Shown: piece after piece, positions 13,662 through 28,051 of the stretch
How positions within the stretch are numbered: the first letter of the stretch is position 1
Layout: the number at the start of each line of letters is the position of its first letter
Origin: Pedobacter segetis
GTDB taxonomy: Bacteria; Bacteroidota; Bacteroidia; Sphingobacteriales; Sphingobacteriaceae
Direction: 5' to 3'
DNA: 64,000 nt
NCBI RefSeq assembly: GCF_016623585.1
Contig: NZ_JAEHFY010000003.1
Span: 1-64,000 of the forward strand
Notes under the pieces: generated by a model
Told to the model about the DNA's origin: nothing
What the model saw: the letters and a program-made list of their open reading frames with translations, nothing else
The model's database searches: none
Position numbers and translations under genes: made by a program

Positions 13662-16109
13662 TTAATTTAAACCTGCTGGTAAGCTATTGTTGGGGTCGTC
13701 TTTTTTAAAATCTAGTTTACCAAACCTGTAAGCAAAAGTTAACCCAAAAGAACGGAAAGGGATTTGACGGTAGGATGTTTTGATAGAATTACTTGCGTTA
13801 ATTGTAGTTTCTTGACGGATATACTTATTAAATGGATTGGTAGCCGTAAACCCTATGCTGCCTTTCTTTTTAAGAATTTGTTCTCTTAATGCCAGATTAT
13901 AAAATAAAAAAGAAGGTCTTTTGCCTTGTATGCTGTTTTCTGGAGCGTTATAACTGCCAAACATTTCGCCGCTAAAATTAGGGTTAAACTCATAACTGGC
14001 GTTCAAATTTATCCTCGCCCTAAAACCATTAATATTTGGTCCTCCGGTATATTTATCAATAACATTTTGATTGGCTATGTACATATTTGGGCGTACGGTT
14101 AGTTTGCTGCCAAACGGTATAGAGCCAGATATGCTTATGCCTTCCCTTATTTCTTGCCCAATATTTAAACGGGTACTTAATGTCAGGTTTTTGTAGGTAG
14201 AATCGCCAACAACATAAGAAGGATAGAATGTAGAATAAGATTTTATATCCTGATCATTATGTCTAAAAAATAAGGATATGTTTAAGTTGCCCCCTTTTTT
14301 GTAGTTTTTATTAAAGCCAAATTCAAAATTATTACCAATTTCTGGTTTTAGGCTAGGGTTTCCGGTGCTCGCATTTCTAGGGTCTGATAGATCTAAGAAC
14401 GGGTTTAGATCTTCATAATCTGGTCTTTCTATCCTGTAGCTATAACTCAATTTTAAACTATTCTTATTGGCAAAATTATGCGCAATCACTATAGATGGGG
14501 CAAAAGTATTGTAAGGGTCTATATTTATTTTGCCCACCTGAGAATAGTATGCATCAGAAAAAGTGCGCTCATACCTCAAACCAGATTTTACATCTAAATA
14601 ACCTAAAAGCTTATAGGTACCAGAAACATAAGCCGCATAAATATTGCGTTTATAATCTAAACTATTGGTTTGTGATAAATTTGGAGCAAATTCTTGGGAG
14701 TTGTTATCTAAAGAATATACAAGCGCATTGCTATTGATGTGGTTGATGATGGTTTTTGCACCGGTTTCTAATACAAAATTATCGTTTAAAGGGTAGGTAT
14801 AATCCAGATTAATTTCCACTTCATTATTTGCACCTTGGTTGTTGCTCTTTAAGCCAGAAAATGGGTTTAAATTTAGTAACGATTGATTTTGATTAAACGA
14901 GGAAGAGCTGTTGCCCAAACTGGCATTGGTTTCTATATTAAGTTCTTCATCGGCCTTTTTAAATGTTTTTTTATACGCAAGGGAAAGATCCACAGAGCGT
15001 TCATTAAAATGATTATTGGCATTTAACAAGGATGCTTCGCTATTTAAAAGCTGATTGCCTTTAAAAGTTTTTATATTTTGATTGTTAAAGTTTTGATTAT
15101 CATAATTATAAGAATTATAACTAGCAGAAGCACTGATATTGTTTTTTTTGTTGATATCCCAATCCAAACCCAAACCAGTTCTAATGCCACCCCTATTGAT
15201 TTTACTGTTTCCGTCTTGGATTAGGTTATTGGTAGTGTCTGCAAAAAACGAATTTCTGTTTAATCCGTTTAAACTAGTAGTATTAGGCTGGTTGTTTCCG
15301 TTAAAATATGTGTTGATACCAAAACTGCCCCTTTTAGCCCCTAAATTAAGCGAGCCATTGTTTCTACGTGTTCCCGCCGATAGATTAATACTTCCGTTAA
15401 TACCGTAAGCGTTGTTTTTCTTTAAGATGATGTTGATGATCCCCGCAGTACCGGCAGCATCGTACTTAGCTCCTGGGCTGCTAATTACCTCCACGCTTTT
15501 TATTTGATTTGCGGGTATAGATTGTAGCGCATCGGCAACGCTACTGCCAAAAATAGACGAAGGTTTGCCATTGATCAGAAACTTTACCCCAGAACTCCCT
15601 AAAAGTTGCACATTCCCATCAATATCAACCGAAACTTGTGGCACTTTTTTTAAAACATCGGTAGCTACACCGCCCTGCGAGGTAAGGTCGTTCTCGGCAT
15701 TGTAAACAATTTTATCAATCTTATTTTGTATAATCGGTGCGTTTGCTGTTACGGTAACGCTTTTTAACAATTTGCTAGATGATATCAAAATAACCTTGCC
15801 CAAGATAACCTGGTTATCTTGTTCGGTAAGTTTAAGGTTATCAATCGTTTTACGCTTATAGCCTATAAAATCTATGGTAACTTTGTACTCTCCTAAATTA
15901 ATATTGCCGATGGTAAACTCTCCTTTTTCATTGGTTACCACGCCATCAATTGGCTTGTTGCTCCCCGTTTTGTAAAGCCCGATAGAAGCATAATCGATAG
16001 GGGTATGGGAAGCAGAATCTATAACAGCACCACTGATTTTACCAATTTTTTGAGCTTTTAAAGATATACTGAAAAATAAGGCAAAGGCTAAGAAAGTATA
16101 TTTCATCAT
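13662..16109 (-). CDS. TonB-dependent receptor / outer-membrane beta-barrel protein
   Basis: 815 aa. Signal peptide 1-19, a CarboxypepD_reg-like domain (~22-105; GAVIDSASHTPIDYASIGLY), then a plug-like domain (~110-235; GGVATDVLKKVPQVSVDIDG, EVISSPGAKYDAAGTAGIINI) and a C-terminal barrel rich in alternating aromatics and Asn, ending near SFGLTFAYRFGKLDF. This is the OMP_b-brl_3 type rather than a SusC. No SusD follows. The substrate is unknown. It reads in the same direction as the PadR pair, but the operator lies between, so it is probably a separate unit. Confidence 0.85.
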   Translation of the reverse strand: MMKYTFLAFALFFSISLKAQKIGKISGAVIDSASHTPIDYASIGLYKTGSNKPIDGVVTNEKGEFTIGNINLGEYKVTIDFIGYKRKTIDNLKLTEQDNQVILGKVILISSSKLLKSVTVTANAPIIQNKIDKIVYNAENDLTSQGGVATDVLKKVPQVSVDIDGNVQLLGSSGVKFLINGKPSSIFGSSVADALQSIPANQIKSVEVISSPGAKYDAAGTAGIINIILKKNNAYGINGSINLSAGTRRNNGSLNLGAKRGSFGINTYFNGNNQPNTTSLNGLNRNSFFADTTNNLIQDGNSKINRGGIRTGLGLDWDINKKNNISASASYNSYNYDNQNFNNQNIKTFKGNQLLNSEASLLNANNHFNERSVDLSLAYKKTFKKADEELNIETNASLGNSSSSFNQNQSLLNLNPFSGLKSNNQGANNEVEINLDYTYPLNDNFVLETGAKTIINHINSNALVYSLDNNSQEFAPNLSQTNSLDYKRNIYAAYVSGTYKLLGYLDVKSGLRYERTFSDAYYSQVGKINIDPYNTFAPSIVIAHNFANKNSLKLSYSYRIERPDYEDLNPFLDLSDPRNASTGNPSLKPEIGNNFEFGFNKNYKKGGNLNISLFFRHNDQDIKSYSTFYPSYVVGDSTYKNLTLSTRLNIGQEIREGISISGSIPFGSKLTVRPNMYIANQNVIDKYTGGPNINGFRARINLNASYEFNPNFSGEMFGSYNAPENSIQGKRPSFLFYNLALREQILKKKGSIGFTATNPFNKYIRQETTINASNSIKTSYRQIPFRSFGLTFAYRFGKLDFKKDDPNNSLPAGLN

Positions 16110-16180
16110 AAACAGGGGGAACTAAATTTTTCACAGAATTAAGAAGAAAATCTGAAGTAAATTAGTAGTTATTAAATTTG

Positions 16181-16843
16181 TTACGATCGCTTAACCTTAT
16201 TTAAACTATCGCGTTTAATAACCCTCAAATAAATTAAAATCAATATCCATAAATAAGCCGTCCCCAGTAAAAACCCGCCCAAAACATCGCTAAACCAATG
16301 TGCACCTAAGTAAATCCTAGAAATAGGGATGGTTAAAATCAGAAACATACAAAAGCAAATGATTATTGAACGAAGCGTATGATTTAACCATTTATGGTGG
16401 TACAATATAAAGGCTATGAACCCAAAGAATGCAATATAAAAAGATACATGGCCGCTTGGGAAGCTTTGATGCTGAACTTCTATAATTACCCTAACTAAAT
16501 CTTTGCCAGGCCGTGGTCTGTTTACCAAAACCTTTATCAAATAAGTAATTAAAGCAACCAAAAGTGTAGCTAAACAAAAATAAGCCGTTTTTCTTTTTTT
16601 TGCGATGTAAAGAATGGCAGCACTTAAAACAACAGATATTACAGACTGATAAGTTAAACCAAACCAACTAATAGCTTTCATGATGAAGTCTAAAACAGAG
16701 TTGTGATATTCTTGTACTTCCTCAGAAAACTCATGATCTATCCAAGATGATGGAAAAACCCAGACCAAAATGGTAAGGATCAAAAATCCAGAAATGATGA
16801 TCAAAAGAATTCGCCTTGCATTTTTATTCCCAAGTTTTAACAT
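16181..16843 (-). CDS. PAP2-family membrane phosphatase
   Basis: 220 aa with about six membrane helices. All three PAP2 signatures are present: K104...R109P in KVLVNRPRP, S130-G-H132 in SFPSGH, and SRIYLGAHWFSD (R176, H182, D186). It would dephosphorylate a lipid phosphate such as undecaprenyl pyrophosphate, or phosphatidate, on the periplasmic face. Divergent from the YncE-like gene across a 142-base region with TTCTG repeats. A decayed copy of its 5' part lies at 23.3 kb. Confidence 0.9.
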   Translation of the reverse strand: MLKLGNKNARRILLIIISGFLILTILVWVFPSSWIDHEFSEEVQEYHNSVLDFIMKAISWFGLTYQSVISVVLSAAILYIAKKRKTAYFCLATLLVALITYLIKVLVNRPRPGKDLVRVIIEVQHQSFPSGHVSFYIAFFGFIAFILYHHKWLNHTLRSIIICFCMFLILTIPISRIYLGAHWFSDVLGGFLLGTAYLWILILIYLRVIKRDSLNKVKRS

Positions 16844-16893
16844 CTTTTTTGCTTTAAGCCCAAACTTTGGCCTAATATAAAAGAAATGTTAAA

Positions 16894-16956
16894 TTCTGAA
16901 GATATTTAGGTTAAGCTTTGCAGTTGATCAGGTTTCTTCAGAATCTCTACAGAATT
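16894..16956. promoter_or_regulatory. PhoB-box-like TTCTG direct repeats between divergent genes
   Basis: CAGAAT at 16939 and again at 16950 (11-base period; on the other strand ATTCTG-N5-ATTCTG). A second site, TTCTGAA at 16894, faces the PAP2 gene. The same 11-base-period motif occurs before the TonB receptor at 23.85 kb. Confidence 0.45.
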
Positions 16957-16985
16957 GAACTTTAAATAGCGTAAAATCTTAAAAT

Positions 16986-18014
16986 ATGTTAAAGAAAAAT
17001 ATCTTGGCCTCATTAAGCATCTTATTGATGGCCACTTCCCTAAGCAGCTACGCACAAAATGTTTCTAACTATCATGTTATAAAAAGTTTCCCCATAAATG
17101 GCGATGGCGGCTGGGATTATTTAACTGTTGATGCACCCAATAAAACGGTTTATGTATCCCATGGGAATGAGGTAAATATCCTCAATATAGAAACGGGCAA
17201 AGAAATCTATACCATAAAGAATACCATCGGCGTTCACGGGATTGTGTTGGTAAAAAGTTTAAATAAAGGGTATATAAGTAATGGGAAGGATAATAGCTGC
17301 ACCGTTTTTGACATTAAAACCAATGAGACTTTAAAAAAGATAGAAACTGGCGCAAACCCAGATGCTATTTTTTATGATGATTATTCTAAAAAGATATTCA
17401 CTTGTAACGGTAAAAGTGAAGATGCTACTGTGATTGATCCAATTACCGATAAGGTTGTAGCCACTATCCCACTGGGAGGAAAGCCAGAAACAGCTGTTTC
17501 TAATGATAAAGGATTGGTTTTTGTAAATATAGAAACTACTAATGAAGTGGTTGTTTTTGATGCAAAGACCTATCAAATAAAGCATAGGTACAAATTAGAA
17601 GGTGGCGAAGAACCATCTGGTTTAGCGATAGATTTAAGCACAAACCGACTTTTTGTAGGTTGTGGTGGCAACCAACAAATGATCGTAATGGATGCCTTAA
17701 CAGGGAAAAATTTAGCGAAATTCCAGATTGGGGATTGCGATGGTGTAGCGTTTGATCCAATGTATAAAAACGCTTATTCTTCTAACAGAGAAGGTACTAT
17801 TACCGTAGTTAAAGAGGAAAATGCCAATAAGTTTGAGTTAGTAAAAAATATAGAAACAGAGTTTGGCGCAAGAACAATTGCTTTAAACCCAATAACACAT
17901 CATTTATTTGTTTCTACCGCTAAAACCGAAGCAGTAAAACCAACAGACCAAAACCCAAGGCCACGCCCAAGAATTTTACCCGGTACTTTCCATGTTTTAG
18001 AGATTGGGGAATAG
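16986..18014 (+). CDS. YncE-like secreted beta-propeller protein
   Basis: 342 aa. Signal peptide to SSYAQ (residue ~24), then seven-bladed propeller repeats with YVTN-type phrases: TVYVSHGNEVNILNIETGKEI, KIFTCNGKSEDATVIDPIT, VAFDPMYKNAYSSNREGTITVV. A proline-rich tail precedes the last strand. Members are periplasmic and of unclear function; some respond to iron or phosphate stress. It shares the divergent control region with the PAP2 gene. Confidence 0.8.
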   Translation: MLKKNILASLSILLMATSLSSYAQNVSNYHVIKSFPINGDGGWDYLTVDAPNKTVYVSHGNEVNILNIETGKEIYTIKNTIGVHGIVLVKSLNKGYISNGKDNSCTVFDIKTNETLKKIETGANPDAIFYDDYSKKIFTCNGKSEDATVIDPITDKVVATIPLGGKPETAVSNDKGLVFVNIETTNEVVVFDAKTYQIKHRYKLEGGEEPSGLAIDLSTNRLFVGCGGNQQMIVMDALTGKNLAKFQIGDCDGVAFDPMYKNAYSSNREGTITVVKEENANKFELVKNIETEFGARTIALNPITHHLFVSTAKTEAVKPTDQNPRPRPRILPGTFHVLEIGE

Positions 18015-18754: not shown

Positions 18755-19657
18755 TTGGAAGATATAGATAATAATGAAAGTAAGATAGAGATTGATTTAC
18801 ATGCTTTTTTAAAGATTATTAAAGCGGAGAAAAAAATCATATTAATAGCAATTTTTCTTTCAGTGATAATTGGTTCATTTTATGCTATTTATTATAATTC
18901 TGAACCAAAGTTTGTGGCAGTTGGTAAAATTATGCCTGAAGTTGCAAGTAAGCCAACAAATGGTTTGGGTGGGTTATATGAAATACTAAAAAAATATAAT
19001 TCTAATTCTGACGTGTACAATACAGACATAACCAGACCAGAATTATACGGAGAAATAATTAACACTAAAGCTTTTTTTGATTACCTAATATCTAAGAAGG
19101 TAGAAACAGCCAATACAAAAGAAATACTTTTTAAAACTTATTGCAATACCAGGCTAATGCCAGAGAGTGTATTTCATCAAAACGAAAAAGAATTTGATAA
19201 GGTAGGGGCATATAGCTATCAAGAGATCATTCAAAAAAGGATTGAAATTAGTACTTCAAAAAATAAAGTTGTATCAGTTTCTGTAGAAATGCCCGATCAA
19301 ATAGTTGCTGCCAAAATTGCCAATTATACGATAGATTATTTAATAGATTTCATTATTAAATATCGAACAAAAAAAGCCCGACAAGAACTTTTATTTGTTG
19401 AGAATTTGATTAATAACACTCCAAAAGAAGGTTTATCAAAAGAAGTGAAAAGCGATTTATTAGCATCGTTGGTACAAATGAAGATTAAAATACAAGAAGA
19501 TACCCCTGTTATCCAAGTATTAGAATATGCATCAATTCCAGTATTCAAAAGCAATCAATCCAATATTATCATCATCTTACCTTTTATGTTTTTAGGTTTA
19601 ATAATTGGGATATTTGCTGCATTATTCAAAAACAAAACATATAAAATATTTTTGTGA
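18755..19657 (+). CDS. Wzz/GNVR-type polysaccharide chain-length determinant
   Basis: 300 aa with two membrane helices: ~28-50 (IILIAIFLSVIIGSFYAIYY) and ~270-290 (IIIILPFMFLGLIIGIFAAL), flanking a periplasmic domain. This is the Wzz architecture. The start is inferred to be TTG at 18755 (MEDIDNNESKIEIDLHAFL); the in-frame region before the first helix has no ATG. It lacks the fused tyrosine kinase of longer homologues. It converges on the glycosyltransferase/UbiA operon with a 15-base gap and may control chain length of a glycan those enzymes contribute to. Confidence 0.75.
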   Translation: MEDIDNNESKIEIDLHAFLKIIKAEKKIILIAIFLSVIIGSFYAIYYNSEPKFVAVGKIMPEVASKPTNGLGGLYEILKKYNSNSDVYNTDITRPELYGEIINTKAFFDYLISKKVETANTKEILFKTYCNTRLMPESVFHQNEKEFDKVGAYSYQEIIQKRIEISTSKNKVVSVSVEMPDQIVAAKIANYTIDYLIDFIIKYRTKKARQELLFVENLINNTPKEGLSKEVKSDLLASLVQMKIKIQEDTPVIQVLEYASIPVFKSNQSNIIIILPFMFLGLIIGIFAALFKNKTYKIFL

Positions 19658-19672
19658 TAGCCACATCAACGC

Positions 19673-20647
19673 CTATTTAGATTTTGCTAGAAAATTCCAG
19701 GTTTTTACTATAAATAAGGTATGGAACATTAAAAGATGAAAAACAATAAAAACACAGTTTATAGTATTTTGCAAACAAAGTAGGGCTAAGGTGCAGAAGG
19801 TAAAGAGCGTATAAGCATCATACATGAAGATTCGATAATTACTTGTAGAATTACAACGGAAATACACAAATTTTAGGCTAAATAATTTCTTTTTAATTGT
19901 GAATATGAATACTCCATAAATTAAAATTGGAATAAAAAACGTAATCCAATTAATAGAAAAGGCAAAAATAATAAAAGAGAAAATTTCAAGAATTAAAAGA
20001 GAAGATTCAATCTTATTTTTTAATGCTGGATCACTACCTACAACATAAGTATTTAAACTTACCACCTTGTCTTTCTCTTCATCAAGATATTGGTGCATTA
20101 TTAATGCTCTTATACCCATAGAGAAAAAAAGCCAAAGTGCACCCGAAAAAACAAAAATATAATTGTTGCTAAAATTAGCATTAAAAAGAAAGGCAAAAAT
20201 AAAGAGAGAGGGGAAAAGTTGAGAGTCTAAACCATCCGCAAGTAAATCTAAAAATGGTTTTTCTTTTAGTCTTATGGCATTAGAAGAGTATAAGTAAAAG
20301 CAGATGAAACTTAAACCATACAAAATAATTGTTAAATTATGGTTTAATAAAAAATAGGAATAAATTAAGCCAAAAACAATACTTAAAGCTAGTGTCAATT
20401 TTCTGGTGGTTGGCCTCAATTTTGCCATTCCGTTGGGTTTCCCAACTTTAATGTCGAATTCTATATCATAATAATTATTAACTAAACTTGCCCAAATAGC
20501 TATAATTATAATTCCAAGAAGTAAAATAAATAATGTTTTTACCTTTATTTGAAAACCAATATTAGGGTTTTTATAGAAAAAAGAATAAATTAAGCATAAA
20601 AACGGAGCTAATTTATTTTGCCATGTTGATAAACGGATAAACTCCAT
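19673..20647 (-). CDS. UbiA-family membrane prenyltransferase
   Basis: 324 aa with about nine hydrophobic helices. Both Mg-prenyl-diphosphate motifs are present: N57-x3-D61-x3-D65 in NNYYDIEFD and a second D-x3-D in YLDEEKDK. The phrase KVGKPNGMAKLRPTTRK follows the first motif. UbiA enzymes join a polyprenyl group to an aromatic, sugar or other acceptor in the membrane; the acceptor here is unknown. It is the last gene of a four-gene operon, 2 bases after the Pyr4/PaxB-like gene, an arrangement reminiscent of meroterpenoid pathways. Confidence 0.8.
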   Translation of the reverse strand: MEFIRLSTWQNKLAPFLCLIYSFFYKNPNIGFQIKVKTLFILLLGIIIIAIWASLVNNYYDIEFDIKVGKPNGMAKLRPTTRKLTLALSIVFGLIYSYFLLNHNLTIILYGLSFICFYLYSSNAIRLKEKPFLDLLADGLDSQLFPSLFIFAFLFNANFSNNYIFVFSGALWLFFSMGIRALIMHQYLDEEKDKVVSLNTYVVGSDPALKNKIESSLLILEIFSFIIFAFSINWITFFIPILIYGVFIFTIKKKLFSLKFVYFRCNSTSNYRIFMYDAYTLFTFCTLALLCLQNTINCVFIVFHLLMFHTLFIVKTWNFLAKSK

Positions 20648-20649
20648 GA

Positions 20650-21336
20650 TTAAAGCACTGACCAGGGATTTTTACCTTCCTTTTTCATTTGGTTAAATAT
20701 CAATATAGCATAATATACTTGAATAATTATACATGTTGCCATTAGCATCATCATAAACGAATTGCCCCACTGATGATGATAAGGATTGAATAAAATCTCT
20801 ATAACATAGCAAATTATACTTATAGTGAATGAAAATGCGATTAGAAAAGATTGCCCGCGAGAGTTTTTTCTCTGAAAAAGCATGGCAACCATACAAGCAG
20901 GCACAAATAGATACACTATAAATCCAACTAGCACCTCTGCGAAAATAAAATCTTTAGTAATTATATTTTGCAATTGAGAAAAAAATTGTTCGCCATATAA
21001 ATTAAGCATAAATCCTATCAAAAATACGGATAAGCTTAGTATTAGCCAATGTGGTTTTCTAATAGCATAAAACAAATGGAAGAAATTATAACTATACTTA
21101 AAATAAGTAAAAGCAATACCTAAATCTAAAAGAAACCATGTGAAATTTAAGTAGAGAGAAATGCCATTTGAAGGATAAATAAATACATGGATAAACTCCC
21201 AAGTAAAATTTAAGGCCATTGCAATAAGAGGCATTCCATGTGCTTTGTCTTTTATCCCTTTCAAAATAATTAAAAAGTAAGCAGTTGCCCAAAAGAATCC
21301 CCCTATTGGTACCATAAATGCAATTAAATAATTCAT
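20650..21336 (-). CDS. Seven-helix membrane protein resembling Pyr4/PaxB terpene cyclases
   Basis: 228 aa with seven predicted membrane helices and almost no loops. The second helix carries GMPLIAMALNFTWEFIHVFI, with N43, W46, E47 and then IYPS. As I recall, fungal PaxB/AtmB/Pyr4 cyclases share the NxxWE and IYPS pattern, including a catalytic Glu. The C-terminal acidic residue of those enzymes is not obvious here (IIIQVYYAI). The start overlaps the upstream glycosyltransferase by four bases and the UbiA gene follows at once. The cyclase assignment is tentative and the protein may be an uncharacterised relative. Confidence 0.5.
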   Translation of the reverse strand: MNYLIAFMVPIGGFFWATAYFLIILKGIKDKAHGMPLIAMALNFTWEFIHVFIYPSNGISLYLNFTWFLLDLGIAFTYFKYSYNFFHLFYAIRKPHWLILSLSVFLIGFMLNLYGEQFFSQLQNIITKDFIFAEVLVGFIVYLFVPACMVAMLFQRKNSRGQSFLIAFSFTISIICYVIEILFNPYHHQWGNSFMMMLMATCIIIQVYYAILIFNQMKKEGKNPWSVL

Positions 21337-22247
21337 GTGATCCTATTTTTTAAAACCGAGAATATCATATTAATAAGTAAAATTGGTTTGCTTAAAATTG
21401 TATTAAAATTTTGGAGAAATTGCTTTTTATCATCTCCATTTTTTATCAAAACATACAATAACTTGAGCGTGTCTTTTAATAAATTTTGCTCAATTACTTT
21501 GTATTCTTTTTTTGTTAAAACCGCTTTCAAATGATTTAATAAAATTACAGTGTCTTTCGTTCTTCGTTGGTTTTGTATGGTAGTTTTTAATTTGTTCTTT
21601 ACCTCATCATCCTCTCTTTTTTCCCACAAAATTTCATTTACATAAGCTACTCTACAATCTTTATTTTTCACAATACACGCTATTTGTAAATGCCAGTCTT
21701 CATATTCCATTGATTCATTGTTCCACCCGATCCCTAAAATAGTTCTTTTCATAACAACACCCGATGTTGGCGCAGGACAGTTATATAGTATTAATTTTCT
21801 AATTTTTTCATACTCGAAAACATGATATTTGCTTTGTGTATATTTCTGAAATTTGAACCCATGAATGGCACATCTAACAAAAACTATATCTAAATTCTTA
21901 AACAATAAATAATTAACAATTTTTTCTAAGTAATCTTTATACCAAACATCATCCGAGTCTAAGGTGGCGACAATAGTCCCTTTAGCAATACCTAGGCCTA
22001 TGTTTCTACTATGAGATTTACCAGTATTTGGTTTAAAAATCGGTTTAATTTTATCCAAATAAGATTTTAAAAGTAATTTTGTACCATCTTCAGAGCCATC
22101 ATCAATAACGATAATTTCTTTGTGTGGATAAGTCTGATTTAGAGCGCTATCTATAGCATTTTTTAGAACATTGGCCCTGTTTAAAGTTGTAATAATTACA
22201 GAGACCAATGGTTTTTTTGATACGCTGTTTATATCAGATATGTACAT
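21333..22247 (-). CDS. GT2-family glycosyltransferase (second of pair)
   Basis: 304 aa. GT-A fold: VSVIITTLNRANVLKNAIDS at the N-terminus, EIIVIDDGSEDGT, and the metal-binding DSDD in VATLDSDDVW. Residues ~160-215 hold the acceptor region with EDWHLQIACI. No membrane helix, so it is cytoplasmic. It lies 2 bases after its paralogue and overlaps the next gene by ATGA, giving strong translational coupling. It probably adds a sugar to a lipid-linked or terpenoid acceptor; donor and acceptor are unknown. Confidence 0.85.
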   Translation of the reverse strand: MYISDINSVSKKPLVSVIITTLNRANVLKNAIDSALNQTYPHKEIIVIDDGSEDGTKLLLKSYLDKIKPIFKPNTGKSHSRNIGLGIAKGTIVATLDSDDVWYKDYLEKIVNYLLFKNLDIVFVRCAIHGFKFQKYTQSKYHVFEYEKIRKLILYNCPAPTSGVVMKRTILGIGWNNESMEYEDWHLQIACIVKNKDCRVAYVNEILWEKREDDEVKNKLKTTIQNQRRTKDTVILLNHLKAVLTKKEYKVIEQNLLKDTLKLLYVLIKNGDDKKQFLQNFNTILSKPILLINMIFSVLKNRIT

Positions 22248-22249
22248 TG

Positions 22250-23200
22250 TTAAAGTATTCTTCTGCGTATAACTTTTGTAACCCCTTCTTTTAGAGCAAC
22301 AAATAATAAACTAGGGTTAGCAAAAATCTCTTTACACAATTTTTTTAATTCTTTGCTGTTATTCTTTTCAAAAAATAAATAATAGGCCACCAGCATTTTA
22401 TTTTGAAGAATTTTTAGGTTTAAAGTTTTTCGTTCAAAATCATTCATGTATGATTCAAATGTATGGAGAAGCAATTGCAAATCCTGAATGTGTAATTTCC
22501 TAAATTCTGCACCTTTTCTGTTATCACAGATATTACTATTATCTACATTTTTTCTCCAAAGTACTTGATTGGTAAAGCCTACCCGGCAATCTGCATTTTT
22601 GAACATCATTTCGAATAGCAAAAACATATCATCCCCAATATTCACTTTGGGATTCCATCCAAAAGGAATACATTTTTTTTGAATGATTGAACTTGAACTT
22701 GGAGACGGACTTTCTTTAAAGAGAACAGTTCTAAATTCTTGATAATCAAATAAATAAAATTCATTATTTGATATTTTTTTATTTTTTGAAAGATAAGAAA
22801 GTTCATTTTTCAGGTTCTTTTTAGAAAAACAATGGATGAAATTTGAAAAAAACATATCTAAATTATGATCAAGCATATAATCAACGCTTTTTTCTAAAAA
22901 ATCTTCATTTAAAGTATCATCCGAATCTAGCGGGGCAATAATTTCTCCTTTAGCATATTGCAGGCCCAAATTCCTTGTATCTCCTTGGCCAGAATGTGAT
23001 TTTTGTATGTAAAACAGTTTGTTTCCAAAAGTTGAAACAACTTTTTTTGTGTTATCTGTAGAACCATCATCAACAACGATAATCTCAATGTTTTTATAAG
23101 TTTGATTTAGTACAGACTCAATTGTTTTATGTAAAACATAACCACGATTAAAAGTTGGTATAATCACCGAAACTAAAGGCTGTTTATTATCAATTAACAA
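22250..23200 (-). CDS. GT2-family glycosyltransferase (first of pair)
   Basis: 316 aa, paralogous to the next gene: VSVIIPTFNRGYVLHKTIES, EIIVVDDGSTDNT and IIAPLDSDDTL. First gene of the four-gene operon; the start at 23200 gives MLIDNKQPLVSVIIPTF. The two share the same layout and an ESPSPSSS / NCPAPTSG block, suggesting a duplication. The acceptor is unknown. Confidence 0.85.
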   Translation of the reverse strand: MLIDNKQPLVSVIIPTFNRGYVLHKTIESVLNQTYKNIEIIVVDDGSTDNTKKVVSTFGNKLFYIQKSHSGQGDTRNLGLQYAKGEIIAPLDSDDTLNEDFLEKSVDYMLDHNLDMFFSNFIHCFSKKNLKNELSYLSKNKKISNNEFYLFDYQEFRTVLFKESPSPSSSSIIQKKCIPFGWNPKVNIGDDMFLLFEMMFKNADCRVGFTNQVLWRKNVDNSNICDNRKGAEFRKLHIQDLQLLLHTFESYMNDFERKTLNLKILQNKMLVAYYLFFEKNNSKELKKLCKEIFANPSLLFVALKEGVTKVIRRRIL

Positions 23201-23306
23201 GATGTGTAATTAAGAAATTCATAGGCGGCAAAGTTATTTTAATACTTCAACAATGCAACATTAAAGGTTAAATAGTGTTTGTGATTGTTGGTAGCCTAAT
23301 ACATAA

Positions 23307-23584
23307 ATCAACTAATGGCTTTGATGATGCAGTTTAAAACAGAATTATGATGTTATTGTACTTCCTCGGAAAACTCATGGTATATCCAAGATGACGGAAA
23401 AACCAAAACCAAAATGATTAGGAACAAAAATCCAGAGATGATGATCAAAAGAATTCGGCTTGCATTTTTATTCGCAAATTGTAATATCTCTTATGTTTCA
23501 AGCCTCCATCTTTCTATTCATATAAAATAAACGTTAAATTCTGCAGATGTTCTGGTTAAGCTTAGCGATTGATTATTTTGAGGT
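23307..23584 (-). pseudogene. Decayed partial copy of the PAP2 phosphatase gene
   Basis: Aligns by eye with 16660-16940: the same order of words covers codons 1 to ~60 of the PAP2 gene plus its upstream region (AAATTCTGnAGAT, GGTTAAGCTT). Frame-breaking differences and loss of the catalytic two thirds show it is not functional. The upstream TTCTG box is better preserved here (TTCTG at 23539 and 23550). Confidence 0.8.
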
Positions 23585-23851: not shown

Positions 23852-26653
23852 ATGAAAATACGTTTAATTACCTTTCTATTTCTGTTCATTACCTCTGCGG
23901 CATTTTCTCAAAACACTTTAACTGGTAAGCTTTTAGATGCAAAAAATGGCGAACAATTAGTAGGTGCTACAATTAAGCTTTACAACCCCGTAACAAATGC
24001 GATTACACAATTAGACGGTTCTTTTAAATTTAAAGATTTGTCTTCTGGTAATTATCACATTCAATGTGCCTATTTAGGTTACCTAAAATTAGATACAGTT
24101 CTTAACATCGGCTCTTCTTTAAGTGTTGTTTTTTACTTGCAAAGATCATCAACAAATTTACATGAAGTAACCATAGTTGGGGTAAAAGATGGCTCTTCGC
24201 AGCAGTACGCCCGCCGGGCAGAGCAAAAATCTGATAACGTAAGTAATATAGTGTCAGCAAAAAGCATTCAGCTTTCCCCAGATCTAACCGTGGCCAACGT
24301 ACTGCAAAGGGTTTCTGGAGTTTCTATTGAACGTTCAAACACTGGCGATGGTGAAAATGCCATTATCAGAGGGATGGATAAACGATATAACGTTACGCTG
24401 ATCAATGGGGTAAAAATACCGAGCCCAGATAACAGGAATAGGTTTGTTCCATTAGATATATTTCCTGCCGATCTTTTAGACCGTCTAGAAGTAATTAAAT
24501 CTTTAACCCCCAATATGGAGGCTGATGCCAGTGGCGGGGTAATGAATATTGTGATGAAAGATGCACCTGATCATTTAATTGTCAATGCAAACGCGGCAGC
24601 GGGATATAGCCAAATTTTCTTAAACCAAGATGCCATGCTTTTCGGTAAGGGTGCGATCAACCTTCAATCTCCGGCAGAAATCAATGGAGAGCAATATTTG
24701 GCAAAGATCAGTGATTTCACAAAGTCAAACTATCGGTATAGTGCAAAGAATTTTCCGGTAAATAGTGTGGGAGGTTTTTCAATTGGTAATAGGTTTTTAC
24801 ATGATAAACTAGGTGCTATTGCAGCGTTTAGTTATCAAAACAACTTTAGGGGGTCTAGTTCTGTGTTTTTTGAACCTAGCACCCAACCAAATCCCTCAAC
24901 AGACAAAAATACAGATAGTAGCCCTGTATTTACCGATGGATTTTTTAGGACTTACACCAGCCAACAAAATAGAGTTGGTGCGCATTTAAAATTAGATTAT
25001 CACCTAAGCCCAAAAACCACTTTTAGCCTTTTTTCTACCTTTTTACAGCTCAATAAAACAGAATACCGCCATTCTATAGATTCTGTTTTGGCTATCCAGA
25101 GAGTAGGCCCTGGACAGGGTTTAGTAGAGATAGCGGATAGATCCCGCTACGAAAAGCAGAATATATCAAGCTTTACCCTGCAAGGGAAGCATTTGGTAAG
25201 CCAACGCTTTTCTGCCGATTGGTCTGCGGTGTATTCTAAAGCCACAAGAAAACTTCCAGACTTTGGTCAGCTTAAAAGCACTCATCAAGTGGGTATAGAT
25301 GCAAATGGGAACACTTACGAAACACCTTTTCTTTTGTTAAGCTTTGGCCGAGATTGGCAACATAACACTGATAAAGATTTAGCAGGTTATTTAAACCTCC
25401 ATTATTATCCTACTTTATTTAAACAAAAAGTTGCTTTTGATTTTGGGGGGCTTTACAGACATAAAAATAGGGACAACTACGATAACAAATATACACTAAG
25501 CCCAAAATCGAACCCAGATGGAAGCCCACAGGTATTTAATGGAATAGATCAGGCGCAATTTATTTTTAATCCCGCAAATGCGGCATTAGGATCGGCTTCT
25601 TCTAACCCCGGTGTTTATACTTTTGACGAAATCATTGCAGCGGGCTATGGAGAGCTAAAATTTTTAATCTTAAAAAAGCTAGAGTTCTTGGGCGGAGTTA
25701 GATTTGAAAGTACAGCCCAAAATTATGAGACCTCTGCACCTATTTCTTTTGTAGGAAAATCAGGCTCTATCAGTTATTTAGATGTATTGCCTAGCGCCCA
25801 TTTCAAATATATTTTAAACAGAAAACAAGCGGTTAGGCTTTCTTACTATAAATCTATCAGCAGGCCTGCTTATGCAGATATTATCCCTTTCCCAGATGCC
25901 AGCACCAGTGAATTTTATACTTTAAACGGAAACATCAACTTAAAACATACGCAAATAGATAATTTAGATTTTAGGTACGAGGTTTTCCCGGGCGGCTTAG
26001 ATGCTTTTATGGTGGGTGCATTCTATAAGTTTTTGCAAAACCCGATAGAATATGCGCTGAAACAAACTACCACATCGGGGCAAGAATTAAGGCCAGATAA
26101 TTTTGGGAACGCTACTAATTATGGTGTCGAGGTAGTTTTTACAAAGTATTTTGGCACTTGGGGCGTGTCCGGAAATTATACCTACACTCATTCAAACATA
26201 TCATCAAATAAAGGGCTTTATTATCGAGATACAAACGGTAACCTTACCACCATTTATGTAGAACAAAACAGACCATTACAAGGCCAATCGGCACATATTG
26301 GTAATTTTTCTTTGCTTTATAAAAATGTGAAGCAAGGGATAGATGCGCAATTGGCCGCTGTTTATACGGGCGAACGCATTGCGCAGCTCTCTCTTTACAG
26401 AAATTTAGACTACTGGCAAAAAGCTTCCACCGTACTGGATTTTTCTGCCGAGAAGAAAATCAGTAAGCACCTAAAAATATACGCCAAGGCCAACAATTTA
26501 TTAAATACGCCTTACGAGGTTATCATAAAACAGCCCAATCGTTTTACCACCGGTAAATTGGCCCTGCCTGCACAAAACAACAACAGTTATATCCTCACGC
26601 AAAGAGATTTATATCAGCCTTCTTATTTGTTGGGATTGAGGTATAAGCTTTAA
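23852..26653 (+). CDS. TonB-dependent receptor
   Basis: 933 aa. Signal peptide to AAFSQ (residue ~20), CarboxypepD_reg-like domain (~22-105; GKLLDAKNGEQLVGATIKLY), plug (~125-235; RVSGVSIERSNTGDGENAIIRGM, FVPLDIFPADLLDRLEVIKS) and a 22-strand barrel ending in QPSYLLGLRYKL. The RGMDKRYNVTLINGVKIPSP plug motif resembles receptors for chelates and peptides rather than SusC. The likely operon continues with two lipoproteins, which may be surface or periplasmic partners. The PhoB-like box upstream suggests, but does not prove, a phosphorus-related substrate. Confidence 0.9.
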   Translation: MKIRLITFLFLFITSAAFSQNTLTGKLLDAKNGEQLVGATIKLYNPVTNAITQLDGSFKFKDLSSGNYHIQCAYLGYLKLDTVLNIGSSLSVVFYLQRSSTNLHEVTIVGVKDGSSQQYARRAEQKSDNVSNIVSAKSIQLSPDLTVANVLQRVSGVSIERSNTGDGENAIIRGMDKRYNVTLINGVKIPSPDNRNRFVPLDIFPADLLDRLEVIKSLTPNMEADASGGVMNIVMKDAPDHLIVNANAAAGYSQIFLNQDAMLFGKGAINLQSPAEINGEQYLAKISDFTKSNYRYSAKNFPVNSVGGFSIGNRFLHDKLGAIAAFSYQNNFRGSSSVFFEPSTQPNPSTDKNTDSSPVFTDGFFRTYTSQQNRVGAHLKLDYHLSPKTTFSLFSTFLQLNKTEYRHSIDSVLAIQRVGPGQGLVEIADRSRYEKQNISSFTLQGKHLVSQRFSADWSAVYSKATRKLPDFGQLKSTHQVGIDANGNTYETPFLLLSFGRDWQHNTDKDLAGYLNLHYYPTLFKQKVAFDFGGLYRHKNRDNYDNKYTLSPKSNPDGSPQVFNGIDQAQFIFNPANAALGSASSNPGVYTFDEIIAAGYGELKFLILKKLEFLGGVRFESTAQNYETSAPISFVGKSGSISYLDVLPSAHFKYILNRKQAVRLSYYKSISRPAYADIIPFPDASTSEFYTLNGNINLKHTQIDNLDFRYEVFPGGLDAFMVGAFYKFLQNPIEYALKQTTTSGQELRPDNFGNATNYGVEVVFTKYFGTWGVSGNYTYTHSNISSNKGLYYRDTNGNLTTIYVEQNRPLQGQSAHIGNFSLLYKNVKQGIDAQLAAVYTGERIAQLSLYRNLDYWQKASTVLDFSAEKKISKHLKIYAKANNLLNTPYEVIIKQPNRFTTGKLALPAQNNNSYILTQRDLYQPSYLLGLRYKL

Positions 26654-26680
26654 ATTTCAAACTATATTAAATTAAAAATC

Positions 26681-28051
26681 ATGAAAATCAAACAATTATC
26701 ATTTATCATTTTAGCGGGAAGTATGGCCATTATGGCTTCCTGTTCTAAAAAGGAGAACACCCAAATATCTACCCCGCCGTTGCAAGTTGGGCAGGCCGTG
26801 AGCGATACCGCTCCACTAACTGGTTCTATAAAAGGGACAATGCTTAGTGGCAAAACATACACCATTAGTGGAGATGTAACAGTTAATGAAGGCGATACCC
26901 TTTTGGTACAAAAAGGTGTTAAAGTTTATATGACCAATAATGCAGATGTGATCGTTAAAGGTACGCTACTTTCTTTGGGTACTAAAGAACAACCTAATTA
27001 CTTTACGGTAAAAGATGCTGTAAAAACCAACGACCCAAATGTAAACCCAGATGATGATGACGCTTATAAAGGCCTTTGGACGGGCATAAACTGTGATGTG
27101 ACCTGTAAATTATTAGTATTAAAGTGGACACATATCGAATTTGGGGGAGGAGTATATACCACACCTCCGGTTACCGGAACCAAGGCAAACGATAATTCTT
27201 TTGTAGTACTTTTTCAAAACGTTGACGGTGTTTTTGTAATGGAAGACTCTTGGGTTTATGGCGGCATTGATGATCCTATCAGGCTAAAAGGAGGCAAGTT
27301 TAATTTGATGCGGAACACTTTTGAAAAATGTGGTAAAACAGGTGGCGATGTGATGAACGCAAAAAGCGGTAGCGTTGGAAATATGGCCTATAATCTGATT
27401 ATTGGTTCTGCCACTACGGGTACCAAAGCTTCTAATAAAGGTGGTGCCCCTGTGCAATGTAATGTTAATATGTACAACAACACTTATATAAACGGCGGTT
27501 ATAGAAGGTTAGAAAGTGGCAGAGGTGGATCTGTGAATTACGAAGAAGGATCTAGGGGGAATGCCTTTAATAATTTGATCGTAGATTGTAGATTTGGTTT
27601 TAGAGTGGTTAATGACCCATTAGCCGACACTTTGAACCTAAAATATGGCAATACCTATAATTACAACAGTACTTTAGAGACAGCAAATGAGATTTATCCT
27701 ACTGGATATATTACCAAACCAAAGCCTTCGGATATTCCTATACCAAGTTCTTTCTTGCCAGCAAGTTATGCTTTAGGCGATATTTATGATGGCAGCAGCG
27801 TGGTGGCCAAAAACGACCCTAAATTTATGAATTATCCATTGCCACAGTCTAATTTTAAAAAGATAAGTACTGTGGGCACTTATGATTTTCATTTGTCAGC
27901 TAGTTCGCCATGTGTAGGAAAAGGCACTACTACCGCTTTTTCCCCTTTAAATGTAGTCCCTGTTGATCCTAATTATGGTTCTTCAGAAATTACCCCTCCG
28001 GGTAAAGATATAGGTGCTTTCCAAACAGACGGTACCGGAAACCAACATTAA
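26681..28051 (+). CDS. Right-handed beta-helix lipoprotein
   Basis: 456 aa. Lipoprotein signal ending MASC-S (Cys20). A parallel beta-helix pattern is visible: GDVTVNEGDTLLVQKGVKVY, ADVIVKGTLLSLG, then repeating short strands with VFVMEDSWVYGG and NLMRNTFEKCGK. It starts 27 bases after the TonB receptor and probably encodes its cell-surface or periplasmic partner. A strong terminator follows. No catalytic residues were identified; such folds occur in polysaccharide-binding and lyase proteins. Confidence 0.7.
   Translation: MKIKQLSFIILAGSMAIMASCSKKENTQISTPPLQVGQAVSDTAPLTGSIKGTMLSGKTYTISGDVTVNEGDTLLVQKGVKVYMTNNADVIVKGTLLSLGTKEQPNYFTVKDAVKTNDPNVNPDDDDAYKGLWTGINCDVTCKLLVLKWTHIEFGGGVYTTPPVTGTKANDNSFVVLFQNVDGVFVMEDSWVYGGIDDPIRLKGGKFNLMRNTFEKCGKTGGDVMNAKSGSVGNMAYNLIIGSATTGTKASNKGGAPVQCNVNMYNNTYINGGYRRLESGRGGSVNYEEGSRGNAFNNLIVDCRFGFRVVNDPLADTLNLKYGNTYNYNSTLETANEIYPTGYITKPKPSDIPIPSSFLPASYALGDIYDGSSVVAKNDPKFMNYPLPQSNFKKISTVGTYDFHLSASSPCVGKGTTTAFSPLNVVPVDPNYGSSEITPPGKDIGAFQTDGTGNQH

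Follow-up and report, generated by a model that had tools for sequence, protein, structure and literature searches.

A gene module of Bacteroidota combines a UbiA-family prenyltransferase and a Pyr4-TMTC-family protein with glycosyltransferases and a Wzz-type protein

Introduction

Cyclases of the Pyr4 type have been described for natural products of fungal and mostly actinobacterial origin. The bacterial enzyme DmtA1 has been reported to start its reaction by protonation of a C-C double bond, terminal-alkene protonation has been proposed for ZigF, and epoxidation is said to be unnecessary for MfmH and MacJ (PMC6173783, PMC13307353, PMC10882540). DmtA1 requires no epoxide; its E60 is essential and its D214A variant is nearly inactive, whereas D214N retained more activity. 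A UbiA gene adjoining a TMTC gene is a known biosynthetic pairing (PMC13307353). Such a pair is found in the zig system, and the fungal meroterpenoid clusters (pyripyropene, anditomin, and others) likewise hold UbiA beside a Pyr4-family protein.

Here, we describe a module with this pairing in the window (the whole analyzed stretch of 64,000 nucleotides from a Pedobacter segetis contig). Its TMTC is of the small seven-helix type, like DmtA1 (drimentines), XiaE/XiaH (xiamycin), TylF (tolypodiol), and ZigF (zigralone). Unlike the bacterial Pyr4-like cyclase systems, the module lacks a P450, a methyltransferase, a cyclodipeptide synthase, and a polyprenyl synthase, and has Wzz-type and GT2 proteins instead. 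Compared to the fungal clusters, it has no PKS and no FAD monooxygenase, but contains glycosyltransferases and the Wzz-type protein. The first-pass annotation had pointed to this pair as the core of fungal meroterpenoid pathways; a likeness of the locus to a fungal meroterpenoid cluster was not supported, with neither PKS nor epoxidase in the module. The combination of UbiA and TMTC is of a known kind, placed here in an envelope-glycan setting rather than in a classical meroterpenoid cluster.

UbiA proteins in Bacteroidota operons are also described for the ebo cluster and Ubi-297 (EboC; PMC9235831). In contrast to ebo, the window UbiA did not match the EboC family of NCBIfam (NF035940), and no other ebo gene was recognized in the module. 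Nor was any of eboA-F found around the window UbiA, where the neighboring genes encode GT2 and Wzz proteins, TonB receptors, PAP2, and a beta-propeller.

Organization of the locus

ORF calls placed a tight four-gene operon on the minus strand at positions 19673-23200, with spacings of +2, -4, and +2 bases in coordinate order (Table 1). The first-pass annotation had described this operon, and its coordinates and gaps of -4 to +2 bases were borne out. However, those limits left out the convergent Wzz-like gene, which is the fifth member of the module and is new relative to that annotation.

Table 1. Features of the module and of the flanking direct repeat
Feature	Coordinates	Strand	Remarks
GT_B, GT2, 316 aa, first gene of the operon	22250..23200	-	TTG start, PF00535
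GT_A, second GT2, 304 aa	21333..22247	-	PF00535
Pyr4-TMTC-family seven-helix protein, 228 aa	20650..21336	-	PF25129
UbiA-family prenyltransferase, 324 aa	19673..20647	-	PF01040
Wzz-type chain-length-determinant-like protein, 300 aa	18755..19657	+	TTG start, PF02706; convergent with the operon
Direct repeat, left copy	16661..16928	.	self-BLAST; overlap with PAP2 gene 16181-16843 (-) in its 5' part
Direct repeat, right copy	23305..23573	.	self-BLAST; lies upstream of GT_B; no intact PAP2 gene here

Five genes scanned on the two flanks of the module (13662-18014 and 23852-28051) were assigned by Pfam to TonB receptors, PAP2, and a beta-propeller, and one had no match. No epoxidase was detected by Pfam among these five or among the module genes, and the same genes include none for making a polyketide or another acceptor. 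The absence of an epoxidase, already recorded in the first-pass annotation, therefore stands within this range, but it is no obstacle to cyclization, because DmtA1, ZigF, MfmH, and MacJ are reported or proposed to start without an epoxide. The two copies of the 269-bp direct repeat are 83% identical and may be a trace of the route by which the module entered. The PAP2 gene was considered as a lipid-phosphate partner, and this idea was dropped because BLAST found no PAP2 homolog beside the module in other loci. Among ten neighboring proteins scanned, Pfam backed the names integrase and PAP2, which had been given by eye.

Both glycosyltransferases are GT2 enzymes, as had been proposed, with hmmscan scores against PF00535 of 120.4 bits (GT_A) and 125.4 bits (GT_B). 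They are 34% identical to each other. GT_B has a DSD motif at residue 92 and no hydrophobic stretch above the threshold used.

The UbiA-family prenyltransferase

The window UbiA matched PF01040 with 40.7 bits in hmmscan (cut-off 34.2), which confirms its family by profile search. Residues N57-D61-D65 and D189-D193, which we take to be the two Asp-rich motifs of UbiA prenyltransferases, were invariant in 15/15 aligned proteins. A sequence search of the PDB with the single protein gave no match, and a profile search returned only two chlorophyll synthases. The predicted structure (pLDDT 87.3) has the UbiA fold and matched 4tq4 with Z 18.0 (rmsd 3.1, 238 aligned residues), above its matches to unrelated prenyl synthases (Z about 14 and less). 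In the UbiA tree, which included L100 and L101 and omitted L099, the window and Arundinibacter proteins were grouped with support 100/99. This is the sole grouping relied on here, since much of the backbone was unresolved; four further UbiAs encoded in the genome formed long branches.

The Pyr4-TMTC-family protein

The 228-residue protein matched PF25129 with 74.8 bits (E 1.1e-20; curated cut-off 27), close to the scores of its relatives in Arundinibacter (73.4 bits) and L062 (70.9 bits). Its Pyr4-family assignment and its position next to UbiA thus agree with the first-pass annotation, as do the two motifs named there: NxxWE, present as NFTWE at residues 43-47, and IYPS. NxxWE occurs in 6/8 module TMTCs and is replaced by NLGVE in the remaining two, and IYPS is confined to the window and Arundinibacter among these eight. 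The Glu of TM2 (window E47, matching DmtA1 E60), on which the first-pass annotation had staked the assignment, was found in all eight aligned module copies and in 24/26 aligned proteins. The latter count was made without L047 (the reverse complement of L065), L049 (whose TMTC was lost by the ORF caller), and L099-L101. E47 is the putative proton donor.

Matching to DmtA1 was done by motif and spacing rather than by direct alignment to bacterial Pyr4-like cyclases, and on this basis W29, Y33, N56, W59, E60, and Y217 are all kept in the window protein. The second acid, in TM7 (DmtA1 D214), is replaced by Gln in the window (Q206) and Arundinibacter proteins. At the same position, the six Flavobacterium module TMTCs in the alignment have E (four) or D (two), and D occurs in 18/18 aligned TMTCs from outside the module. 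Because of this Gln, we assign the window TMTC to PF25129 with a variant at the second site, and not to the canonical two-acid cyclases.

The AlphaFold2 model of the protein has seven predicted helices and is of fair quality (best pLDDT 77.3; five models from 77.3 to 47.1, built on eight sequences). A sequence search of the PDB gave no match, and with a model of this quality the comparison with the Pyr4 fold proposed in the first-pass annotation is an indirect one. The best structural matches belong to the PQ-loop group (KDEL receptor with Z 12.6, cystinosin, SWEET), although Z below about 13 may arise by chance for helical bundles.

Recurrence of the module

The survey of other Bacteroidota that the first-pass annotation had suggested was run, and the GT-UbiA-TMTC string was found in 11 genomes: the window, Arundinibacter, and nine Flavobacterium. 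The grouping is therefore more than chance. GT_B was kept in 11/11 copies, with 54-60% identity of the window protein to its Arundinibacter and Flavobacterium counterparts. GT_A was found at the same place in two of the 11 genomes (window and Arundinibacter, 60% identity). The Wzz-type gene occurs in all 11, adjacent in ten and unlinked in Arundinibacter, so that GT_B, UbiA, TMTC, and Wzz are co-inherited. The window Wzz protein is 59% identical to the unlinked Arundinibacter protein and 44-50% identical to the product of the convergent gene in the nine Flavobacterium genomes. Its match to PF02706 (27.1 bits) only just exceeds the cut-off of 25.5, and other copies reached 34.5 bits (L047) and 28.6 bits (L061). 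Hydrophobic stretches lie near both ends of the protein (about 21-48 and 266-293). The tie between Wzz and the module shows association and not function.

The TMTC gene was present in 1/18 genomes of the window's genus, the nearest kin of the module belong to another order, and its GC content is 27-30%, compared with 35%. From this composition, distribution, and tree, the module looks horizontally acquired. The synteny test within the genus was uninformative, with matches to the flanking gene 16986-18014 in 6/18 genomes and mostly distant ones. The module loci may already be among the 264 bacterial sequences of PMC13307353.

Related loci

Parapedobacter, Pollutibacter, and a Chitinophagales MAG (L066-L069, L074) have UbiAs of the same clade paired with GT2s, within exopolysaccharide-type clusters. 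These clusters include an undecaprenyl-phosphate sugar transferase, GT4, an ABC transporter, an outer-membrane protein, and Wzy_C. Their UbiAs are 25-29% identical to the window protein over the alignment and share the GK.N/T.M-region and HQ..D...D motifs, and their GT2s are 36-40% identical to GT_B. Unlike the window, they have no TMTC adjoining UbiA, and the Parapedobacter clusters carry large glycan machinery that the module lacks. A TMTC as a normal part of the Parapedobacter clusters was considered and dropped because P. indicus alone has one, at a distance of 6.9 kb from UbiA, and the search of the other four loci gave none.

In two cyanobacteria (L073, L075), a UbiA domain of the same clade is fused to a class-II-cyclase-like domain. 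These fusions resemble the window in combining this kind of UbiA with a cyclase, but the cyclase is squalene-cyclase-like, and PhyH and TPR parts lie in the same protein.

TMTC-family relatives adjoin signaling genes (histidine kinases, nucleotide cyclases, or SpoIIE proteins) in 5/20 neighborhoods, and the Pyr4-TMTC fold may therefore also have other roles. Pfam covered part of the flanks of these other TMTC loci.

A second, unrelated-looking string of UbiA, TMTC, FAD monooxygenase, and GT2 genes was seen in another genome of the same phylum (G405).

Proposed function and alternatives

In the best of the readings considered, which we hold to be about as likely as not, the module is a horizontally spread unit for prenylation, epoxide-free cyclization, and glycosylation that is tied to surface-glycan machinery. 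We infer each reaction, the order of the steps, and the surface destination of the product as follows. UbiA would use a prenyl diphosphate to attach a prenyl chain to an acceptor already in the cell, since the module contains no acceptor-making gene. E47 of the TMTC-family protein would then protonate an alkene of the chain and cyclize it without an epoxide, one GT2 (two in the window) would add sugar, and the Wzz-type protein would tie the product to envelope-glycan assembly or display.

This reading is favored by GT_B-UbiA-TMTC and Wzz in 11/11 genomes, the motifs and predicted fold of UbiA, the conserved TMTC residues, the UbiA-GT2 pairs in exopolysaccharide-type clusters, and the G405 UbiA-TMTC string. 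It is also favored by the cyanobacterial fusion, an independent pairing of UbiA with a cyclase-like domain. Against it are the Gln at the second acid in the window and Arundinibacter, the signaling genes beside TMTC relatives, and the lack of an aromatic- or polyketide-making gene. Moreover, UbiA is found paired with GT2 where no TMTC is present, and the cyclase may thus supplement a core reaction of another kind.

As the module spread together with a surface-polysaccharide gene, it may make a ringed, sugar-bearing cell-surface molecule. The four- or five-gene set holds a polysaccharide-assembly protein and recurs across Bacteroidota orders, which suggests that Pyr4-type cyclization chemistry serves the bacterial surface as well. 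A more far-reaching version, which we put forward only tentatively, is a new envelope glycoconjugate: UbiA and the Pyr4-fold cyclase would make a cyclized terpenoid in the membrane without an epoxide, GT2 would glycosylate it, and a dedicated Wzz-type protein would serve its display or polymerization. The module would have spread horizontally among Bacteroidota, and the cyanobacterial fusion of UbiA with a class II cyclase would be a parallel solution. If Pyr4-type chemistry does serve the surface, the module is a minimal system in which to look for a new class of terpenoid glycoconjugates, and it provides a natural Asp/Glu/Gln series for probing the role of the second acid in these cyclases.

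The co-inheritance of Wzz, the cluster genes listed above that accompany the UbiA clade, and the missing acceptor-making gene would also fit a carrier or anchor: the GT2s and Wzz would assemble a surface glycan on an isoprenoid lipid made or modified by UbiA and TMTC, with no meroterpenoid formed. We regard this as unlikely, as the module itself has neither polymerase nor flippase, a reason for cyclizing a carrier is not known, and the fusion of the UbiA clade to a class-II-cyclase-like domain points toward cyclic terpenoid chemistry.

Less probable still is that the TMTC has the Pyr4 fold but works as a membrane transporter, flippase, or sensor, and that UbiA and the GT2s yield a glycosylated prenyl compound that stays linear. 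The Gln at the second-acid position (Q206), the PQ-loop matches of the model, and the signaling neighbors of family members agree with such a role. However, the model was built on eight sequences, its five versions differ widely, and its Z values are in the range that may arise by chance for helical bundles. Both the retention of E47 with five further residues that matter in DmtA1 and the UbiA-TMTC adjacency (PMC13307353) argue for a cyclase.

That UbiA is instead a DPPR-synthase-type polyprenyl-phosphate phosphoribosyltransferase yielding a lipid-linked sugar donor is very improbable: it adjoins glycosyltransferases and its model matched the membrane PRTase 8j8j of UbiA fold (Z 14.7), but archaeal UbiA prenyltransferases such as 4tq4 matched better, neither Asp motif varies among the 15 aligned proteins, and cyanobacteria have the clade in fusion with a class-II-cyclase-like domain. 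The NCBIfam phosphoribosyltransferase model PRK12324 was not among the matches of the window protein up to E 10, where HMMER filters can lose weak matches.

Outside chromosomal loci, the TMTC alignment A2 gave 59 pattern matches and 0 confirmed relatives on viral contigs. No UbiA annotation lay near the TMTC in one Nostoc plasmid record looked at, and the Streptomyces record carries no annotation at the corresponding place. Distant TMTCs were found in six plasmid records, four from Streptomyces and two from Nostoc.

A conserved GT2-UbiA-TMTC module

The first-pass annotation had placed four tightly spaced ORFs at 19673–23200, and this operon, on the − strand, was confirmed, with spacings of +2, −4, and +2 bases. 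Its assignment of the 228-residue, seven-helix protein (TMTC) to the Pyr4-type family was also correct, with a Pyr4-TMTC Pfam match (PF25129) of 74.8 bits against a cut-off of 27. The UbiA ORF matched Pfam UbiA with 40.7 bits (cut-off 34.2), and the two GT2 ORFs gave 120.4 and 125.4 bits. These two, GT_A and GT_B, are by sequence related copies, with 34% protein identity and 66% DNA identity over 344 bp.

Features in the window and in loci fetched from other genomes (L-numbers)
Feature	Position	Strand	Remark
Wzz-type gene, convergent with operon	18755–19657	+	Pfam 27.1 bits, cut-off 25.5
Direct repeat, 269 bp, 83% identical	16661–16928 and 23305–23573		overlaps 5′ part of PAP2 gene
TMTC + histidine kinase	L046:9592–11653		
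TMTC + histidine kinase	L055:7745–12335		
TMTC + SpoIIE phosphatase	L056:8340–11678		
TMTC + guanylate cyclase	L057:9820–11740		
TMTC + kinase-AAA-GAF-guanylate cyclase	L058:8346–15224		
PMT-like gene, UbiA, TMTC, FAD_binding_3 monooxygenase, GT2, single string	L048:7936–13199		genome G405, Bacteroidota
Cyanobacterial UbiA fusion, 1556 aa	L073:9842–14512		extra methyltransferase domain
Cyanobacterial UbiA fusion, 1510 aa	L075:8924–13456		

A UbiA alignment scan of 84,980 species (one genome each), not exhaustive because exact short patterns were required, yielded 17 loci. GT_B, UbiA, and TMTC formed a single string in all 11 module genomes, the window counted. Arundinibacter roseus (order Cytophagales) carries the window's four genes in identical order, with identities of 60% (GT_B), 60% (GT_A), 69% (TMTC), and 57% (UbiA). 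Six named Flavobacterium and three further Flavobacterium genomes (L099–L101) carry a GT_B-UbiA-TMTC string with a convergent Wzz gene; GT_A is additional in the window and Arundinibacter, where the TMTC/UbiA order is reversed relative to Flavobacterium. The Wzz gene adjoins the module in 10 of the 11 genomes. In the exception, Arundinibacter, a 59% identical Wzz gene is unlinked to the module, on what its equal length (442,405) suggests is the same contig, and its retention there is good evidence for a function common to the module. This unlinked gene adjoins a phage-type integrase gene (PF00589; L104:8790–10848). Gene content of the flanks varied among most loci; L062/L099 (91–96% DNA identity) and L061/L064 (90%) have flanks in common and are not independent loci.

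The TMTC family is rare. It was found in 1/18 genomes of the window's genus and, in overlapping samples, in 6/301 genomes of the family, 9/400 of the order (8 above cut-off), and 24/395 of the phylum. The family is probably Sphingobacteriaceae, since G108, which falls in it, has sequence in common with Parapedobacter indicus. A profile built from module TMTCs matched 5/299 genomes of a genus taken to be Flavobacterium, since contig L047 of its member G469 is identical, in reverse complement, to L065 of the named Flavobacterium sp. LC2016-23. Four of these had GT, UbiA, TMTC, and Wzz all together; the fifth match was a contig-end fragment with no UbiA within its 1,695 bases. PMC13307353 gives 1107 bacterial candidates, 264 of them retained for nearby terpenoid genes, with Actinomycetota making up 69% of those retained; loci of the module may be among the 264. 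Our search of the literature on Pyr4/UbiA in bacteria and on glycosylated terpenoids found no account of the module among the papers listed.

Proposed function and UbiA-GT2 pairs in other loci

In the best-supported account, which we consider about as probable as all others combined, UbiA would prenylate, the TMTC protein would carry out a proton-started cyclization, GT2 would glycosylate, and the Wzz-type protein would tie the product to envelope-glycan assembly. The gene sets and residues are observed; we infer every reaction. Cyclization without an epoxide is reported for DmtA1, the bacterial Pyr4-like drimentine cyclase (PMC6173783), proposed for ZigF (PMC13307353), and stated for MfmH and MacJ (PMC10882540).

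Against this account, UbiA-GT2 pairs also occur without TMTC.

Parapedobacter clusters pair a same-clade UbiA with GT2, together with an undecaprenyl-phosphate-type sugar transferase, GT4, an ABC transporter, an outer-membrane protein, and Wzy_C. They also encode a large protein that matches Wzz and AAA_31 below threshold. The same-clade pair lies beside GT4 in Pollutibacter and a Chitinophagales MAG, the latter locus also holding an ABC transporter (Pfam). A carrier-lipid or anchor route is the leading alternative, at perhaps half the probability of the prenylation-cyclization-glycosylation account.

Residues, predicted structure, and other settings of TMTC

In DmtA1, according to PMC6173783, E60A and E60Q abolished activity, D214A left very little and D214N more, W29A, W59A, Y33A, and Y33F were inactive, and N56A and Y217A had poor activity; D94 and E133 are reportedly unique to DmtA proteins. 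By motif and spacing, the window TMTC resembles DmtA1 in having W16, Y20, N43, W46, E47, and Y209, but differs in having Q206 at the D214 position. Position 47 was Glu in 24/26 aligned proteins, and position 206 was Asp in 20, Glu in 4, and Gln in 2. Judging from this alignment, the essential acid is kept within the module and the second is variable. Ala occupies position 47 (the TM2 Glu) in L053:9920–10615 and L054:9717–10439, whose TMTC-family proteins may therefore lack activity or serve a different function.

The absence of the second acid in the window TMTC counts against the proposed account, as do TMTC-family genes beside signaling genes elsewhere in the phylum. A non-catalytic TMTC is nonetheless improbable, given the retained E47. 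A TMTC gene lay directly beside a signaling gene in 5/20 fetched neighborhoods (see table), and all five proteins keep the TM2 Glu. A Pyr4-fold signaling unit, if true, would be a finding distinct from the module. The TMTC genes of L056 and L058 are preceded by an MPAB/rubber-oxygenase-type gene.

The TMTC AlphaFold2 model was fair (eight sequences; best pLDDT 77.3, five models spanning 77.3–47.1). Its top matches were the PQ-loop group (KDEL receptor, cystinosin, SWEET), with Z up to 12.6 and 6–12% identity in the top 12 rows; the best Foldseek E was 0.0095, none being below 0.001. Because Z to about 13 may reflect just a common arrangement of helical bundles, this resemblance, with scores compatible with chance, is treated as a lead. 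The literature search, including passages of PMC3281891, found no link between Pyr4 cyclases and the PQ-loop fold.

The single string in G405 represents an epoxidase-bearing pathway whose product is possibly glycosylated; its UbiA had no BLAST match to the window UbiA. Another TMTC gene of Sphingobacteriaceae, in L040:8156–10459, comes after genes for an FMN oxidoreductase and an OsmC-like protein (Pfam, on L040 only); L041 and L044 have similar gene sizes.

Fold and relatives of UbiA

N57, D61, D65, D189, and D193 of UbiA were invariant in 15/15 aligned proteins. The model (pLDDT 87.3) best matched A. fulgidus UbiA (Z 18.0, rmsd 3.1, 238 aligned), followed by A. pernix UbiA and DGGGP synthases. 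All NCBIfam matches of the window and Arundinibacter UbiA were far under cut-off, and therefore no named specificity is applicable; a phosphoribosyltransferase-like UbiA is considered very unlikely. The window genome has four other UbiA-family stretches; scanned as domain pieces, they gave heme O synthase and UbiA-like polyprenyltransferase above cut-offs, with the other two left unassigned.

In two cyanobacteria, a same-clade UbiA domain is fused to a squalene-cyclase-similar region with PhyH and TPR parts. Matches of the cyclase-like region to Pfam SQHop_cyclase_C and to TIGR01787 (E 3.7e-9) stayed under cut-off. In the PDB, the region matched drimenol synthase (E 6.5e-6), and DxDD-like motifs were read in it.

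Origin of the module in the window

The window UbiA grouped with Arundinibacter UbiA in the tree (support 100/99). GC content is 27.3–30.0% in the module genes and 34.9% across the window, whose 1-kb segments have a mean of 0.349 (sd 0.038); equally low values occur in two further stretches, near 12–13 kb. The direct repeat flanks the module and one beta-propeller gene on both sides, and integration via recombination at the PAP2 gene would explain it.
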